In this document: positions 8,063-16,260 of the stretch, in pieces
Position numbering within the stretch: position 1 is the stretch's first letter
Layout of the letters: each line of letters begins with the position of its first letter
IMG/VR virus record: IMGVR_UViG_3300023507_000015
Span: 1-22,546 of that record
Length of the DNA: 22,546 bases
Origin: a virus
Strand: one strand, 5' to 3'
Notes under the pieces: model-generated
Databases searched by the model: none
Seen by the model: only the letters and a program-made list of their open reading frames with translations
Told to the model about the DNA's origin: nothing
Program-made: the position numbers and the translations under genes

Positions 8063-8800
8063 ATGAGCGCAAACGATTACACCATAGGGAAGGGGAAGCT
8101 CCTCTTCAAGCCAGACGGCTCTAACGGGTTCAGGGATCTCGGCAACTGTCCGGACTTCAAGATCACTGTTGATACCGAGACGATCGATCATTTTTCGTCA
8201 CGTTCAGGGCTGCAGACAAAGGACATGGAGATTGTGAAGAAACAGACCGCCGTGGGGTCATTCACCCTTGACGAGCCGGTGATAGAGAACCTGCAGCTCT
8301 TTGTCATGTCCGGATCTCCGTCGGATATCTCCCAGTCTGCAGGCTCAACAACCGACCAGGCCGTGAACGGGTATCATGACCTCTGGATAGATCTCGGAAA
8401 GAAACAGATATCCAGCGTGGTTGTAACAGACTCCGGCGGCACAACCACATATACAGAGGGGACTGACTACGAGGTTGACACTGCAAATGGCCTCCTGAAG
8501 GTCCTTTCTGGTGGCAGCATCACCGACGGTCAGGCGCTCCTCGTTGACTACAGTTATGCCGCCGTGACAATCAAGAAGGTAGGCGCCGCCTCTGCCACCA
8601 CTGTGAAAGGGCACATCTACTTTGCAGGGGACCCTCCGGCAGGCAGAAAGCTGGACGTGAAGGGCTATGTATCACTGAAGCCCAACGGTGATATGTCCCT
8701 CATAGGTGATGACTGGATGGAGATCGGGTTCAGCATGGAGTTCCTGCAGAATTCCGCCTATTCAGGGCTGTTTGAGGTGATTGACAAGGGCGTGGTGTAG
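8063..8800 (+). CDS. Tail tube (major tail) protein
   Basis: A 245-residue beta-rich protein. It opens with the tail-tube pattern GKGKLLFKPDG....FRDLGNCPDFKITVDTETIDHFSSRSGLQTKDMEIVKKQTAVGSFTLDE, where an element such as 'G.P.f.it...e..dh.ss..G' is typical of tube subunits. Residues about 105-200 form an inserted beta domain with YTEGTDYEVDTANGLLKVL, and the final segment returns to the tube fold (MSLIGDDWMEIGFSMEFLQN). Subunits stack as hexamers to form the tail channel. Position after the terminator-like gene and before the chaperone and tape measure supports this. Confidence 0.85.
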   Translation: MSANDYTIGKGKLLFKPDGSNGFRDLGNCPDFKITVDTETIDHFSSRSGLQTKDMEIVKKQTAVGSFTLDEPVIENLQLFVMSGSPSDISQSAGSTTDQAVNGYHDLWIDLGKKQISSVVVTDSGGTTTYTEGTDYEVDTANGLLKVLSGGSITDGQALLVDYSYAAVTIKKVGAASATTVKGHIYFAGDPPAGRKLDVKGYVSLKPNGDMSLIGDDWMEIGFSMEFLQNSAYSGLFEVIDKGVV

Positions 8801-8810
8801 GGGGTGATGG

Positions 8811-9203
8811 ATGGAAGATGAACTGAAAACACTGCTTCCTGAGGAGATATACACCCTGGAGAGCGGGGAACAGGTCGTCGTCCGGCCTGTTCCCTTCGGA
8901 AAGATCAGGATTTTCTCAGAAGCACTGAGCCGCCTCTTTCTCCGTTTTGAGAAGGCAGACCTGAGCCTTGAGGATGTATCAGGGTTCAGCGAACTCTTTG
9001 AGGTAGCCACTGAGGAAGTGATCGGTATCATGGGGATAGTGCTTGATAAGCCCAGGGAGTGGTTTGACCGGATCAGCATTTCAGACGGCCTGGGGCTACT
9101 TGCTTTAATTGTTGAGCAGAACCTCACGGAGGAGGCCAAAAAAAGGGGCCTCGCCCTCTGGGAGAGGGTGAAAGGAGTCTTTCAGAGGCAGTCCAGCATC
9201 TGA
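8811..9203 (+). CDS. Tail assembly chaperone G (0-frame product)
   Basis: A 130-residue mainly helical protein between tail tube and tape measure, the standard place of the G/GT chaperones that coat the tape measure during tail assembly. It has an N-terminal beta part (LPEEIYTLESGEQVVVRPVPFGKIRIF) and helices to the end. Near codon 110 the message has an A7G4 run from which ribosomes could slip into the -1 frame. The ribosome site is GGGGTGATGG immediately upstream. In lambda, the unshifted G is made in large excess over GT; the same is inferred here. Confidence 0.8.
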   Translation: MEDELKTLLPEEIYTLESGEQVVVRPVPFGKIRIFSEALSRLFLRFEKADLSLEDVSGFSELFEVATEEVIGIMGIVLDKPREWFDRISISDGLGLLALIVEQNLTEEAKKRGLALWERVKGVFQRQSSI

Positions 9204-9445
9204 TAAGTGCAGGTCACAGATGGGAGGATATAAGAAATTACACCCCGGGTCAGATAAACCTCTTTCTGAAGGCAACAATAAGGGTTGAAAGGCGGCGTCT
9301 GGAGGAATTACTCCATGTGGTACACGTGGCCTCGCAGGGCAGCAGTAAGGATGTAAAGAAGTTCGTCCGTCAACTGAGGCCGCCGGTAGAGAAGGGAAGA
9401 GATGAGTTGCTCAGTGAAATAACTGGTAAAGGAAGTAATAAATGA
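9116..9445 (+). CDS. GT chaperone extension (-1 frame, made by frameshift)
   Basis: The -1 frame has no stop from 9116 to the TGA at 9443-9445. Its sequence looks like protein: EAVQHLISAGHRWEDIRNYT, then a helix with RVERRRLEELLHVVHVAS, then SSKDVKKFVRQLR. It has no start codon with a ribosome site of its own, and its end overlaps the next ATG (ATGA). If slippage occurs at the A7 run, about 111 residues of G are joined to 100 residues of this frame, giving a 211-residue GT protein. In lambda the T part recruits tail tube subunits. The open frame is seen; the fusion is inferred from the conserved arrangement in long-tailed phages. Confidence 0.75.
   Translation, partial: AEPHGGGQKKGPRPLGEGERSLSEAVQHLISAGHRWEDIRNYTPGQINLFLKATIRVERRRLEELLHVVHVASQGSSKDVKKFVRQLRPPVEKGRDELLSEITGKGSNK
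9138..9148 (+). promoter_or_regulatory. Programmed -1 frameshift slippery run (A7G4)
   Basis: Seven A residues (9138-9144) and four G residues (9145-9148) read in the chaperone frame as GCC AAA AAA AGG GGC. Slippage of tRNA-Lys on the second AAA by one base keeps full pairing and continues as AAG GGG in the -1 frame. The -1 frame is closed upstream by TGA at 9113-9115 and then open to 9443, so any shift must happen between 9116 and 9203, and this run is the only obvious slippery site there. Confidence 0.7.
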
Positions 9446-9603
9446 CAACTGCTGGCCATAGAATAAAGGTTGCTATTGCACCTAATGGCCTGAAAAGTAT
9501 GGTTAAGGGCATGGCGAATAATCTGGCGACCCAGAATGTCATTGCTAAAAAGAAGAGTTTTTCTAATATAGCGAGGAACATATATGGCCTCCAATATCCT
9601 TAG
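9442..9603 (+). CDS. Small ORF between chaperone and tape measure (53 aa)
   Basis: A 53-residue ORF that starts in an ATGA overlap with the end of the GT frame and has AAAGGAAG seven or eight bases before its ATG. It ends 20 bases inside the tape measure gene, in another frame. The product is basic and helical (GLKSMVKGMANNL, VIAKKKSFSNIARN) and starts MTTAGHRIKVAIAP. Coupled starts on both sides support translation. It may be a small tail protein or serve to couple chaperone and tape measure synthesis. No family recognised. Confidence 0.5.
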   Translation: MTTAGHRIKVAIAPNGLKSMVKGMANNLATQNVIAKKKSFSNIARNIYGLQYP

Positions 9604-12600
9604 TCTCATTTTACAGGTAAAAGAGCAGGGCAGTCAAGCATTCAGCAAGTTCAGGAATGGAGTGGAGCAGATATCTGCTGTCTCTAAGGCGTACCACGAG
9701 ACCCTGAACAGGCTTAATGGCACTGCCGATGCCTTCAGAGACAATCTCAGGCGTCTGGCTGGTATTGTGGGGGCGGCAGGGCTTGCCCGGTCGTTCGTGG
9801 AGATCAACTCATCTGCCGAAAAGACAAAACTGATGCTTGAGGGTCTTACAGGCTCTGCCGAGGAGGCATCAAAGGCATTCAACTGGATACTGGACTTTGC
9901 AACAAGTGCACCTTTTTCCATCGATGCCCTGAAAGACAGTTTTGTGAAACTCAAGACTGCCGGTATAGACCCAATGAGCGGGGGTATGCGTGCTCTTACC
10001 GATGCCGTATCTGCTATTGGTGGAAGTAATGAAGATTTGAAACTTGTTTCGATGGCAATACAGCAAATGGCAGGTAAGGGCGTTGTATCTATGGAGGAAC
10101 TCAGGCAGCAGATTGGCGAGCGGATACCCACCGCAATGAAGGCAATGGCAGAGGGATTGGGGATGACCATGTCTCAACTGAGTAAGGAGATCGAGCGGGG
10201 GAATGTCAGGGCATCTGAAGGGCTTGAGGCAATGTTCAGGAAGTTTGAAGAGTGGTATGGCGGACGTGGACAGAAAATGATGCACTCCTGGGCTGGATTG
10301 TTATCAAACATACAGGTTGCGTGGGAAAAGTTCGCCCTGGCGATTGGTGAGGCAGGGGTATTTGAGAAATTGAAGGGAATCATAGATGGTGTTCTGGAAA
10401 AACTTAAAGAAATGAAACAGTCAGGAGAATTAAAAGCCTGGGCTGACAGGATAGCACAGACGGTGACTGCCATTATACAGATATTTCAAACCCTTGCCGT
10501 TATGGTGGGCAAACTTATAGATGCCTTTGGCCCCTTTTTGCCTGTTCTTGCAGAACTGTTTGTCGGGTTCAAGGTGTTAAAGGGGGTGCTTGGAACATTG
10601 ATAGGAGCCCCCCTGCACCTGGCGAGAGAATTCGTGGCACTGAATGATGCGTTTAAGACCCTGATGGCAACTAATATAGGCTCATATCTCTTATCGATAG
10701 GAGAAACGCTGAAGGGGCAGGCAACTGCTTTCAATCTTTTTTATACAGAAGTTGGCGCAACAGTTAAAAGAATGGAATTCAGTTTTGGAAAACTTGCCCA
10801 GACTGCAGGTATGTTTGCTACTGCATTTTTTGCAGGCTGGGAATTCGGAAAGTTGATCAGACAGTTAAATGTTTTTGGGCTTTCTATTGGTGAATGGGCA
10901 GAGGTGGCCATGGCCTATCTGGACAAGTTTTTTACCTGGCTCGGCATACAGTGGCTCAAGGCCTGGAAACTGGCAAAAGAGGTACTGACAGTCGGTATGG
11001 CTGATACCTCAGGGATAGACAGGCAGATCGAGGCACTCCAGAGGCACCAGAAGATCATGAATGATGTTATCAGGGAAATCAAGGAGGGGAGCAAGGCTCA
11101 GGAGGATCACCAGAAGGCGATCAAGGGCACCACTCAGGCGATTGAAGACCAGGGCAAAGCCGCAGTGAAGCAGAAACTCTCCTATGAGGAGATGCTCAAA
11201 TCCATAAAGAAGGGCTCAGAACAGTGGATCACCCTCAAGAACCAGGAACTGAAGACCCTGAAGGCCCAGACGGACTACGAGATCGCCCTGGAGGAGAAGA
11301 AATACAAGGAGGGCAAGATCTCCCTTGAGGAGTACCTGAAGTTCCGGAAGGAGAAACTTGATGGGTATCTAAAAGAGGTGATCCGCCTCAAGGAGACGGA
11401 ACTGGAAAACCTCAAGAAGGCGCCTGAGCCGGATGTTGAGAAGATAAATGCCCTGACCGAGGAGATCAGGCAACTCAGGATAAAGGCGGCACAGGATGCA
11501 CTGAAGATAGATGCAGATATGAAGGCAGGCCTCCGGAAGCAGGAGGAGAACGCCTTTGCGTCGTGGAAGCAACTCCAGGAACTCCGCCTGCAGAGTTTGA
11601 AAGGGCGGATGGATCTGGAAAATACCATGGAGGAACAGGCAGTCAAGACCGGGGATATGCGGGAGTCAGAACACCTTGCCAGATCTCTTGCAAGATATAA
11701 ACAGTATTATGAAGAACAGATAAATATCAAAACCGAAACACTTGGCAGGATAGCAGAACTAAAGGGCACAGAAAGCCAGGAGTACCGGAAACTCTACTCA
11801 GAGCGAGAGGCCCTTCAGAGGGAACTCCAGATCAAAATCATTGAATCAGAGACCCGGATCGCTGAGGCCCGGATGACCGAGGAGGAAGAGGCACAGAAAT
11901 ATATAGCTGAACTCACTGATGACAGGGTGAAACTTGCCGAGACAGAGGCAGAGGAAAAACTCAGGAAGGTCCAGAGATACTATGATCAGGGGCTCATTTC
12001 CGCACGGCAGTACTCCGAGGCAGTCAGTGAGATAGAGGAGCAATTGACCGCCAAGCTCAACGCCGAGATCAGCGACAGGTCACAGCAGCTCACTCAATGG
12101 GCTGACATCATAACGCAACGTGTCCGGAGGATGTGGGACTCTGTAAACAGTGTCATCAGGTCTTCTCAGGATGATATCAGGCAATATTTCGGAGGGGCTG
12201 CCGAGGCTCTTTCCATCACTACCGAGCAGATGCGGTCACAAATACAGTCCTTCCTGAATGCAATAAATTCCGGCACCTATGAGACATTCTGGAGTGCCAC
12301 CCTCTTTGGCAGGAGAATGACCCAGATGGTCGGCACGAGCATCTATGAATGGGCACAACGTGTGACCGAATATGTCCAGTATGTCAAGAACCTCATGGCC
12401 TCACTGAGGGATACGATCCGGTCCTACCAGGAGCAACTCCTTCAGATGCGTGGCGACGAAGTGGCCCTTGTCGAGATGTGGTATGAGGAGGAGGTCCGGA
12501 AACTCAAGGAGAAATTCAAGGACCTTGAGGACTCCCCGGAATATCAGCAGGCCCTCCGCCTTCTCAGAGAACTCTATGAGGAGAAGCTCGAAAAGGCAAA

Positions 12601-13060
12601 GGAGGCGATGGAGGAGGAGGAAAATCTATGGGAAGATAACGAGGAGACGGCGAAGGAGAAATCAAAGAGCATGGGGGGAGCCATAAGCCGAAACATCATA
12701 AAGAACCTGAAGGACGCCGCCGATATGCTCAGGGCATTCAGGGGAGAGATGACCAGAGAGACCCCTGAGCCTTTCGGGGCAGGTGAGGCCGGAGGTGGCG
12801 GGATAGTTCCGGTTAATAAATGGGGTGAAGCAATAAACAGATTCAGGGAGGGTATTCAGCAGCCCTTTCAGGAGATAAAAAATGTACTTGGAGAGTTCGA
12901 GCTCGGCATAAACACGGATATGCAGATCAGGAAAGAGGTCAAACTGGATTCCTTTTTTCAGATACAGACTTTTGACATTGATACAACCAGACGCTGGCTG
13001 AAGGACACAGTATTTCCAGAATGGGAGAAATACATGAAGATGAAGGGGGTTGAATTCTGA
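9584..13060 (+). CDS. Tail tape measure protein
   Basis: At 1158 residues this is the longest gene in the window. Residues about 60-245 match the tape measure N-terminal domain (SSAEKTKLMLEGLTGS, APFSIDALKDSFVKLKTAGI, GKGVVSMEELRQQIGERIP). Hydrophobic stretches at about 290-345 and 405-425 may insert in the host membrane during DNA entry. From about 490 to 1060 the protein is highly charged Lys/Glu coiled coil with phage-typical repeats of EE and KK, then a less regular C-terminus that would face the tail tip. It sets tail length and leaves the tail ahead of the genome. The AT content is higher in the first half than in the coiled coil, hinting at mosaicism. The TGATG stop/start couples it to the next gene. 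Confidence 0.93.
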   Translation: MASNILSLILQVKEQGSQAFSKFRNGVEQISAVSKAYHETLNRLNGTADAFRDNLRRLAGIVGAAGLARSFVEINSSAEKTKLMLEGLTGSAEEASKAFNWILDFATSAPFSIDALKDSFVKLKTAGIDPMSGGMRALTDAVSAIGGSNEDLKLVSMAIQQMAGKGVVSMEELRQQIGERIPTAMKAMAEGLGMTMSQLSKEIERGNVRASEGLEAMFRKFEEWYGGRGQKMMHSWAGLLSNIQVAWEKFALAIGEAGVFEKLKGIIDGVLEKLKEMKQSGELKAWADRIAQTVTAIIQIFQTLAVMVGKLIDAFGPFLPVLAELFVGFKVLKGVLGTLIGAPLHLAREFVALNDAFKTLMATNIGSYLLSIGETLKGQATAFNLFYTEVGATVKRMEFSFGKLAQTAGMFATAFFAGWEFGKLIRQLNVFGLSIGEWAEVAMAYLDKFFTWLGIQWLKAWKLAKEVLTVGMADTSGIDRQIEALQRHQKIMNDVIREIKEGSKAQEDHQKAIKGTTQAIEDQGKAAVKQKLSYEEMLKSIKKGSEQWITLKNQELKTLKAQTDYEIALEEKKYKEGKISLEEYLKFRKEKLDGYLKEVIRLKETELENLKKAPEPDVEKINALTEEIRQLRIKAAQDALKIDADMKAGLRKQEENAFASWKQLQELRLQSLKGRMDLENTMEEQAVKTGDMRESEHLARSLARYKQYYEEQINIKTETLGRIAELKGTESQEYRKLYSEREALQRELQIKIIESETRIAEARMTEEEEAQKYIAELTDDRVKLAETEAEEKLRKVQRYYDQGLISARQYSEAVSEIEEQLTAKLNAEISDRSQQLTQWADIITQRVRRMWDSVNSVIRSSQDDIRQYFGGAAEALSITTEQMRSQIQSFLNAINSGTYETFWSATLFGRRMTQMVGTSIYEWAQRVTEYVQYVKNLMASLRDTIRSYQEQLLQMRGDEVALVEMWYEEEVRKLKEKFKDLEDSPEYQQALRLLRELYEEKLEKAKEAMEEEENLWEDNEETAKEKSKSMGGAISRNIIKNLKDAADMLRAFRGEMTRETPEPFGAGEAGGGGIVPVNKWGEAINRFREGIQQPFQEIKNVLGEFELGINTDMQIRKEVKLDSFFQIQTFDIDTTRRWLKDTVFPEWEKYMKMKGVEF

Positions 13061-16000
13061 TGGCTGGCCAGCAGGCGTATATATTTCAAAAAAACAATCT
13101 CCTTGAAGGGGCATCAGTCTCCGGGCCGGTCTTTCCTTCCAGCCACCGCCCCCTCGTGGTTGCAAAGAGAAAGCAGGGATACGGTTCACTCTCCGTCCTT
13201 GGCAACTACACAGGTGAGCAGGATGCTGTCTTTGAAGTCCAGATAGAGAAGAACACCAGTTCAGATGCTCCTGTCGTCTCGGAGCCGGTCTTTGTCGGTG
13301 CAGGCTCCGGTGAGATTACTGATCTTTCAGCCTCCGGGCTGGAGCCTCAGAGGATTGTCATCCAGTGCACTGATACAGGCAGAGAGAGCGGGACGGCCGA
13401 GGTTGAGATCCTGGGTTACAGATTCAGGGCGAAACAGACCGGCTCCCAGGGTAACCAGATAACTATTGAGATTGACCACCGGGGCCTTGAGTTCGTTGAG
13501 ACAACTTTTACGCTGCTGAATGCACTCCAGGCAGGCAGCAATGGCCTTACTGGTTCAGAGTACGACTGGGATACACAGGCGATCAATGGCGCTTTGGTGC
13601 CTGAAGACGCTCACCGGATCGCCTTTGAGGATGATCCGGTCAATGTCTACCGGCAGTACAAGAAACAGGAGAACGGGCAGTGGGTCTATTACTTCATTCC
13701 TGATATCCGCGTCGATTACCGGGCAGGCAGCAAAATCTATTTCGTCAACCTGGGGCGCACCGTCACGATATCTGACGGTGCAACAACTGAGACATATACC
13801 AACATCAAGACCATCGGTGAGCTCTGGGAACAGATCAGGGACAAGTCTTCGTTGATAGAACCGGTTGATCAGACCATCACGACCACACTGACAGAAGACA
13901 GCCCCTATCTCCTTGAACTAAATCTCACCACAAAGCCCTACAATATGCCGCCTGTGGAGGTTCCAAACGGCTCCGGCTATAACAACAATCTTGATGACAT
14001 TGTTGTTGATGACACCGCCTATACGGAACTGATACAGGTGGAGTGCAGGAATACTGATATTGTCGGCAGGGAAAGATGGAATGTCCGTGGTTCTGTAGGT
14101 GGAGAATACGGCGATTTCTACACAGGCGATATGATAGACCTCGGGCATGTCAAATTCCGGGTACCCGTAAAACTTCCGGAGATGCCCGGTGTCGCTGATA
14201 ATGACTGGTCATGGGAATATTCCCCGAAGGTATCCGGAAACAGCCCGGCCTTTGACGTGGAAGTGATGCTGGGCTCTGCCTCACGGCCGGCAATCTTTAC
14301 CCTTGAATACAAGAAAAACCCCGACTATATCGACCCGAATCAGGGAGCAACCGGCAGGCCCTCCGGTAATCTTGAGGAAACCTGCCTGACGGATTTTACG
14401 CCCAGCGGCGGCTGTGGCTCAACGATATCACAGGGAGGAGGTGAGGCATGTATGAACTGTCTGTTTGAAGACCCTGAAATATGGCTGAATTATCGTGAGA
14501 CCCAGAAATCCGAAGATGGCGAAATCACAGGCATGGTCTTGCATAGCGAATGCTACATATTGAATCTCTCTACCAATACGAGCTACTACCTGTACACTCT
14601 CTTCATTTCTCTCTTTGCTCGTAGAATCAAGAACCTCATAGGCGTGGCGCCTGATGATACCGTGATAGACCTGAACTCAAGGATGCAGACCCTCTTCAAC
14701 AACATGACAACTACCTTGACGACCCAGACTGCAACCGGCTCAAGCCCTTCGAGCGCTCTTGATGCCGCAAAGGTGCAGGCTTCTCAACTGGGATGGTCAG
14801 CCATTGTCTACAGCAGGTATCAGAGGACAAGCTCAAATACCTGGACAGTGTATTTCAATTCGGTAACGATAGACTGGAACGAGATCAGGAACCTCAAGCG
14901 GGATATAGAAAACACTGAACTGGCCTATGCGTATTGTTTAAAAAAAAATGACAGTGATGATCCTTCTGGCTGTTACAGGCAACTGGACAATGCAGAGTAT
15001 TACTGGGAGGTCAATGGCGGTTCGTACATGCCCGCCTTTACCGGCCTTCCCTACTACTCTGCCGTCCGTGATGCCACAGGACAGGTGGTGATCACAAAAG
15101 AGTTCGGCCTCTACATAGAAGAGCCGTCAGACGGTGCCTTTGAGGAGGGAGATACAATCACAATACAGATCGGCGACGGCGGGGGCTCTTCAATAGCCAG
15201 GACCTATCAGGTCGGCGACAGAATCCATCTCAATGTCTATGGCCCGCAATCAATCCGCCTCTCCGGTGGATCCGACGGCATTAATCAATACACCTGGCGT
15301 GTGCAGGGTGAGAAAGACTCTTTCCCTGACTATGCCATGGACAAGGATAACCCCGGGCTTTATACCTCAGACGGCCTCCGGTTCAGAATACTCAATGGAA
15401 TTATCCCCTTCGAAGTTGGGGATGCATTCGTATTTTCGATTGAAAATACCTTTTTCAGGTGGAGAAAGGATGGCGGGGCCTGGTCGGCACAGACTCCCCT
15501 GTCAGATGAGGCAATAACATTGTCAGATGGCCTGAGTGTTCTTTTTACAAGAGGGGTGGAGCCGTCCTTTGAAAACGGCGATCTCTTCGAGATACATGCC
15601 CTGCAGGAAAATGCCCCGTCTAATCTGATAACCCCTGATATGACTGCCTGGCGGGGCAATGGAACACTCACTATAAGCCTCGCCGCTTCAGGCGATGTTG
15701 ATACACTTGTCATCTCCGATCATAATATCCAGTCAAACTTTACCTTCCAGGCCGCAACGGACAGTGGTTTTACAAACATCGTCCACAACGAGACGATCTC
15801 TCCAACCGAGATAATCTGCAAGCGCTACAGTCCGAAATTCACAGCCCGGTACTTCCGGTTCGTCTTTACTGACTCGGATGTTCAGATCGGTCACATATTT
15901 CTTGGCACCGAGATGACACTCAGTCTCGATGCCGACAGGGTGACACCCTTCCGGGAGTTCTTCATAGACCGGACAGAGGGAGAGTCGCCCTTTTCGCTGA

Positions 16001-16260
16001 CGAGGTATCTGAACCGTGGATACAATGTTGAATATGCCTCTTTCATATTGAATGACGATTTCCAGAAACTGGACGAGATGATCCAGTACCTGAAAGAGAA
16101 TAATGACATGCCTTTCTTCTTTGTACCGAATACGACTTATACAGACGAGATAATGAAGGTGAGAGTAGATGCGGACAGGATCGAGATAGATTCGGATATA
16201 GACTATAACGCACCAAAGGGATCGAGGGCCTTCCGGCTCACCCTCCCGTTGAGGGGTTGA
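13060..16260 (+). CDS. Large tail protein, likely distal tail / tail tip component
   Basis: A 1066-residue, mainly beta protein immediately after the tape measure, where distal tail and tip proteins are encoded. It opens with MAGQQAYIFQKNNLLEGASVS and contains many Asp/Gly/Thr-rich strands. Residues 442-467 hold a cysteine cluster, CX9CX11CX2C, that might bind metal or form disulfides. Residues about 500-600 are helical, while the last 150 (YSPKFTARYFRFVFTD, VTPFREFFIDRTEG, FRLTLPLRG) look like a compact beta domain. An in-frame ATG at 14452 sits after a strong AGGAGGT site and could start a 602-residue product. The specific family was not recognised. Confidence 0.65.
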   Translation: MAGQQAYIFQKNNLLEGASVSGPVFPSSHRPLVVAKRKQGYGSLSVLGNYTGEQDAVFEVQIEKNTSSDAPVVSEPVFVGAGSGEITDLSASGLEPQRIVIQCTDTGRESGTAEVEILGYRFRAKQTGSQGNQITIEIDHRGLEFVETTFTLLNALQAGSNGLTGSEYDWDTQAINGALVPEDAHRIAFEDDPVNVYRQYKKQENGQWVYYFIPDIRVDYRAGSKIYFVNLGRTVTISDGATTETYTNIKTIGELWEQIRDKSSLIEPVDQTITTTLTEDSPYLLELNLTTKPYNMPPVEVPNGSGYNNNLDDIVVDDTAYTELIQVECRNTDIVGRERWNVRGSVGGEYGDFYTGDMIDLGHVKFRVPVKLPEMPGVADNDWSWEYSPKVSGNSPAFDVEVMLGSASRPAIFTLEYKKNPDYIDPNQGATGRPSGNLEETCLTDFTPSGGCGSTISQGGGEACMNCLFEDPEIWLNYRETQKSEDGEITGMVLHSECYILNLSTNTSYYLYTLFISLFARRIKNLIGVAPDDTVIDLNSRMQTLFNNMTTTLTTQTATGSSPSSALDAAKVQASQLGWSAIVYSRYQRTSSNTWTVYFNSVTIDWNEIRNLKRDIENTELAYAYCLKKNDSDDPSGCYRQLDNAEYYWEVNGGSYMPAFTGLPYYSAVRDATGQVVITKEFGLYIEEPSDGAFEEGDTITIQIGDGGGSSIARTYQVGDRIHLNVYGPQSIRLSGGSDGINQYTWRVQGEKDSFPDYAMDKDNPGLYTSDGLRFRILNGIIPFEVGDAFVFSIENTFFRWRKDGGAWSAQTPLSDEAITLSDGLSVLFTRGVEPSFENGDLFEIHALQENAPSNLITPDMTAWRGNGTLTISLAASGDVDTLVISDHNIQSNFTFQAATDSGFTNIVHNETISPTEIICKRYSPKFTARYFRFVFTDSDVQIGHIFLGTEMTLSLDADRVTPFREFFIDRTEGESPFSLTRYLNRGYNVEYASFILNDDFQKLDEMIQYLKENNDMPFFFVPNTTYTDEIMKVRVDADRIEIDSDIDYNAPKGSRAFRLTLPLRG

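Follow-up and report, generated by a model that had tools for sequence, protein, structure and literature searches.

A probable lambda-type G/GT tail chaperone frameshift with a tetramer slip site in an IMG/VR virus

We analysed a virus record of 22,546 bases (IMGVR_UViG_3300023507_000015, hereafter the window) and found two overlapping frames that very probably, as judged from sequence and homology, constitute a lambda-type G/GT tail assembly chaperone frameshift pair. This kind of frameshift is already known; the variant feature in the window is the slip site. The gene order is that of a lambda-type locus, both frames have homologues that all place T in the -1 frame of G, the position of the slip site is conserved, and T is under coding constraint. 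From these observations we infer that the shift is ribosomal, that it occurs at a useful rate, and what G and GT do. Most ribosomes would read G and terminate at 9203, and a minority would slip back by one base on an A7 run, with lysyl-tRNA on its AAA codons, and read on in the T frame as far as 9445, which would yield a GT fusion of ~211 amino acids (Table 1). By analogy with lambda, G would bind the tape measure protein and the T part would recruit tail tube subunits, so that the slip rate would set the G:GT ratio. Long-tailed phages widely conserve a low level of G-T frameshifting, and the product ratio in lambda is ~30:1 (PMC5009743); tail chaperone genes placed in reporters gave 6-7% frameshifting (PMC3711429).

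Table 1. Features of the G/T locus and its neighbours, in window coordinates.
Feature	Position	Strand	Basis
Major tail (tube) protein, expected to interact with the T part	8063-8800	+	phrog_807, E 1.7e-52
G, tail assembly chaperone, zero frame, 130 aa	8811-9203	+	phrog_1442, homologues, modelled fold
Predicted GT fusion, 211 aa, ~23.9 kDa, junction ...EEAKKKGPRPL...	8811-9442	+	conceptual translation with a -1 shift placed on the A7 run
T, -1 frame, reached only via frameshift; conserved part from ~9170	9116-9445	+	homologues, third-position bias, no standard start
Candidate stimulator 5' of the slip site: SD-like GGAGGAGG	9128-9135	+	sequence; function inferred
Slip site, an A7 run; GCC AAA AAA AGG in the zero frame; tetramer A_AAA at 9140-9143	9138-9144	+	sole A/T slip motif in the overlap
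Candidate stimulator immediately 3' of the slip site: RNA predicted to fold as a three-way junction	9148-9189	+	folding energy
Tape measure protein, expected to interact with G and GT	9584-13060	+	phrog_1292, E 1.1e-61; Pfam TMP_3, E 2.8e-29

The two overlapping frames have the tail tube gene on one side and the tape measure gene on the other, as in lambda-type loci. G matches the tail assembly chaperone family phrog_1442 with an E value of 1.4e-10. A structural model of G, built from a 21-sequence alignment (mean pLDDT 78.6), matches the fold of the DLP_5 chaperone best among viral proteins, and lower-ranking matches carry the names tail assembly chaperone or 'Pre-tape measure frameshift protein G'. 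Against solved structures the leading matches are YqbN (Z 5.8) and the HK97 tail assembly chaperone (Z 5.6), both modest. A small open reading frame of ~54 aa (9442-9606) lies between T and the tape measure gene; its ATG overlaps the T stop as ATGA, it overlaps the start of the tape measure gene, and it has no Pfam match.

The initial annotation had placed the end of the chaperone frame at 9203 and the opening of the -1 frame at 9116, and both coordinates are confirmed. The T frame is open over 9116-9442, with its stop codon at 9443-9445, and it stands in a -1 relation to G, with which it shares 88 nt. Random sequence of matched composition kept one given frame open for 109 codons in ~0.3% of trials, and had an A7 run within 88 nt in ~0.6%. 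Homology is the stronger evidence for the T frame. Its protein-like content, also proposed in the initial annotation, is borne out by T homologues and by the pattern of differences from relatives. In the T codons beyond the overlap, the window differs from phage L009 at 28, 26 and 53 first, second and third codon positions, and from phage L010 at 31, 21 and 51. Such a third-position excess is, at the level of sequence comparison, the mark of a translated frame; the second frame is thus conserved as a protein while having no standard start of its own. A helical domain is predicted for T with confidence (pLDDT 85.7), and a comparison of it with viral models gave no significant fold match. Among phage records, the T frame alone matches only Stenotrophomonas phages. 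The integrase has only weak matches on plasmid records, which indicate no host.

Relatives were reached by way of the tail tube protein and of alignments; single-protein scans (G or T against viral contigs, T against genome contigs) found nothing. Three close phages, L009, L010 and L011, each carry both genes, with G 57%, 46% and 40% and T 47%, 36% and 26% identical to the window, respectively. T lies in the -1 frame of G in all three. The codons aligned with AAA AAA of the window read ACT AAA AAA AAC in L009, GCA AAA AAA AAT in L010 and GTT AAA AAA AAC in L011, so that an A_AAA_AAC/T heptamer occupies the same two Lys codons. The A-run counts seven As in the window, eight in L009 and L011, and nine in L010. 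In L009 and L011 a TAA of the T frame stands directly upstream of the run, and the slip therefore cannot occur upstream of it. An alignment search recovered 36 IMG/VR loci with a T homologue, every one of which requires a -1 shift; +1 shifting is rejected, since all homologues show -1. A perfect A or T heptamer is present in 31 of 33 tabulated loci (26 T_TTT_TTY and 5 A_AAA_AAN), a set that leaves out the window and contains some nearly identical members. The other two, L071 (TAT_TTC) and L073 (G_TTT_TTC), have a tetramer only, like the window. L073 and its near-identical relative L072 share a slip site near 2957, which reads T_TTT_TTC in L072; a single base thus separates heptamer from tetramer in these near relatives, indicating that the heptamer can be lost. 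The comparison of homologues proposed with the initial annotation thus finds the -1 frame open, with an A-run in the nearest relatives and a T-run in distant ones, near the end of G.

Around the A7 run the G frame of the window reads GAG GAG GCC AAA AAA AGG GGC. A G4 run (9145-9148) follows directly, and CC-A7-G4 spans 9136-9148. Across the whole overlap, no X_XXZ_ZZN or Z_ZZN motif built of A or T occurs other than C_AAA_AAA, and the A7G4 run, placed by the initial annotation in the sole interval where a shift can work, accordingly contains the only A/T slip motif across these 88 bases. The annotation was also right that the in-phase motif is not the classic heptamer. In an X_XXZ_ZZN heptamer the P-site and A-site tRNAs both re-pair in the -1 frame, which they would not do here: on C_AAA_AAA, the P-site AAA would shift onto CAA, and on A_AAA_AGG the A-site AGG would shift onto AAG. 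Clean re-pairing is available to one lysyl-tRNA, on A_AAA, and to no two-codon heptamer. The window thus has a slippery sequence in the overlap and in the correct phase in the form of a Z_ZZN tetramer, and its nearest relatives have a heptamer on the same codons. The slip site of lambda gpG/gpGT is the heptamer GGGAAAG, unlike the A_AAA of the window. Tetramers in Escherichia coli need a stimulator; six were active and gave 0.26-5.6% frameshifting with a pseudoknot, and A_AAA was the weakest of the six even when that pseudoknot was strong (PMC4066793). A_AAA tetramers are nevertheless in use by IS elements (PMC4066793), and in a large set of phages the majority of annotated frameshift overlaps are without the classic motif (PMC10885494).

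Two candidate stimulators, neither of them noted in the initial annotation, flank the slip site. The first is the SD-like stretch GGAGGAGG upstream; L009 has the similar GGGAGGAG at the matching place, and no SD-like stretch is found there in L010 and L011. The second is the RNA predicted to fold into a three-way junction immediately downstream. Its predicted energy of -21.2 kcal/mol places it in the lowest 0.6% of the 45-nt stretches of the contig, but against dinucleotide shuffles it reaches only z -1.80, with 12 of 200 shuffles equally good. L009-L011 lack this junction, and a search for a conserved downstream stem in them found none. In IS911 the stimulator is a three-way junction (PMC5009743), which the structure predicted in the window may resemble. 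The window may hold both parts of an IS911-like composite stimulator, an SD-like stretch upstream and a branched RNA downstream, as sequence and as prediction, the latter at z -1.80 and not conserved. It is plausible from the sequence that these elements stimulate the slip. What counts against the frameshift reading is that the site is not a heptamer, that A_AAA is weak, and that the downstream structure is neither conserved nor far from its shuffled controls. We consider it a rather improbable proposal that the window phage lost its heptamer (AAA AAA AAY to AAA AAA AGG) and that its G:GT ratio is kept by the SD-like stretch and the three-way junction, or alternatively that RNA polymerase shifts at the A-run and the ratio is set during transcription.

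If RNA polymerase added one A, so that part of the mRNA carried A8, G would read straight into T and yield the same fusion (...AKKKGPRPL...). Such transcriptional slippage is conceivable because the relatives have A8 and A9; runs of 7-9 As occur across the clade of the window, slippage at 9-10 As serves dnaX, and shorter runs have also been proposed for it (PMC3711429). The A7 of the window is, however, below the length usual for A-runs (n over 7; PMC3711429), and what the family conserves is a heptamer phased for ribosomes, whether T_TTT_TTC or A_AAA_AAC; T6C runs are too short for the polymerase to slip on. Because of the A7 length and the family-wide phase, transcriptional slippage appears improbable as the source of the fusion. 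Elsewhere in the window, an A9 run (14940-14948) inside a long open reading frame (13060-16260) is long enough for transcriptional slippage.

Still less probable, to a degree that makes it hard to entertain, is a separate translation of T, in which ribosomes would initiate internally or by coupling on a non-standard codon such as CTG at 9158 or 9200 or ATA at 9203. CTG 9200 and ATA 9203 do overlap or abut the G stop, and the T frame of L009 has an ATG ahead of the conserved core. In the window, as the initial annotation had proposed, the second frame has no start of its own: CTG, ATA and similar codons are present, but there is no ATG, GTG or TTG from the opening of the frame to at least 9299. 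The conserved T part (RSLSEAVQHL) begins upstream of CTG 9200, most homologues have no suitable start, and the corresponding genes of phage Summit are annotated as a joined frameshift product. That the frame break stems from a sequencing error, or from a mutation that disabled a formerly uninterrupted gene, is barely credible: homopolymers are error-prone and the heptamer of the window is imperfect, but the homologues already contradict such a reading, with an identical -1 break at all other homologous loci, differences in T that fall mainly on third codon positions, and a confidently modelled T domain.

A prophage recovered in a phylum-wide search with G (L083) is a natural case of frameshift loss. 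Its G homologue (157 aa, 48% identical, reverse strand, ~1400-1870) is followed by a Minor_tail_Z gene where T would be, and a search for T in the L083 genome did not find it. At the slip position this prophage reads AAG AGA AAC, with no A-run; in this one case, the A-run and T are missing together. A further match, G388 (L084, reverse strand, ~1480-1870), was set aside because its G is truncated at the point where T should start. The match ends just before the slip position and the sequence past the break resembles a transposase gene, which suggests that an insertion may have cut G.

We compared the locus to known systems. In Stenotrophomonas phage Summit (CPT_Summit_015/016; Delepquintavirus) and in phages DLP_5 and DLP_3, T is homologous to that of the window (36-41% identity in the aligned part). 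Summit shares with the window the PHROG family of G, the order of tail tube and tape measure genes and the -1 relation, and its record annotates both the chaperone and the joined 'frameshift product'. It differs in having a G of 164 aa and, as slip site, T_TTT_TTT in GAT TTT TTT with no A-run. The DLP_5 and DLP_3 records carry in place of the T frame an annotated remnant of 40-42 aa (L003:3100-3222, L005:2100-2228). As in the window, lambda gpG/gpGT is a short chaperone with a low-level -1 fusion just before the tape measure gene (PMC5009743). The IS elements share the A_AAA tetramer (PMC4066793), but there the product is a transposase; and the stimulators of the window are predictions only.

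The analysis identifies a probable GT chaperone of a type that standard gene calling overlooks or cuts short; the DLP_5 and DLP_3 records are examples. The T family, in which most slip sites are T-runs, gains a clade with an A-run. Heptamer, tetramer and the loss of T altogether form a natural series, which bears on how slippery a tail assembly site must be.
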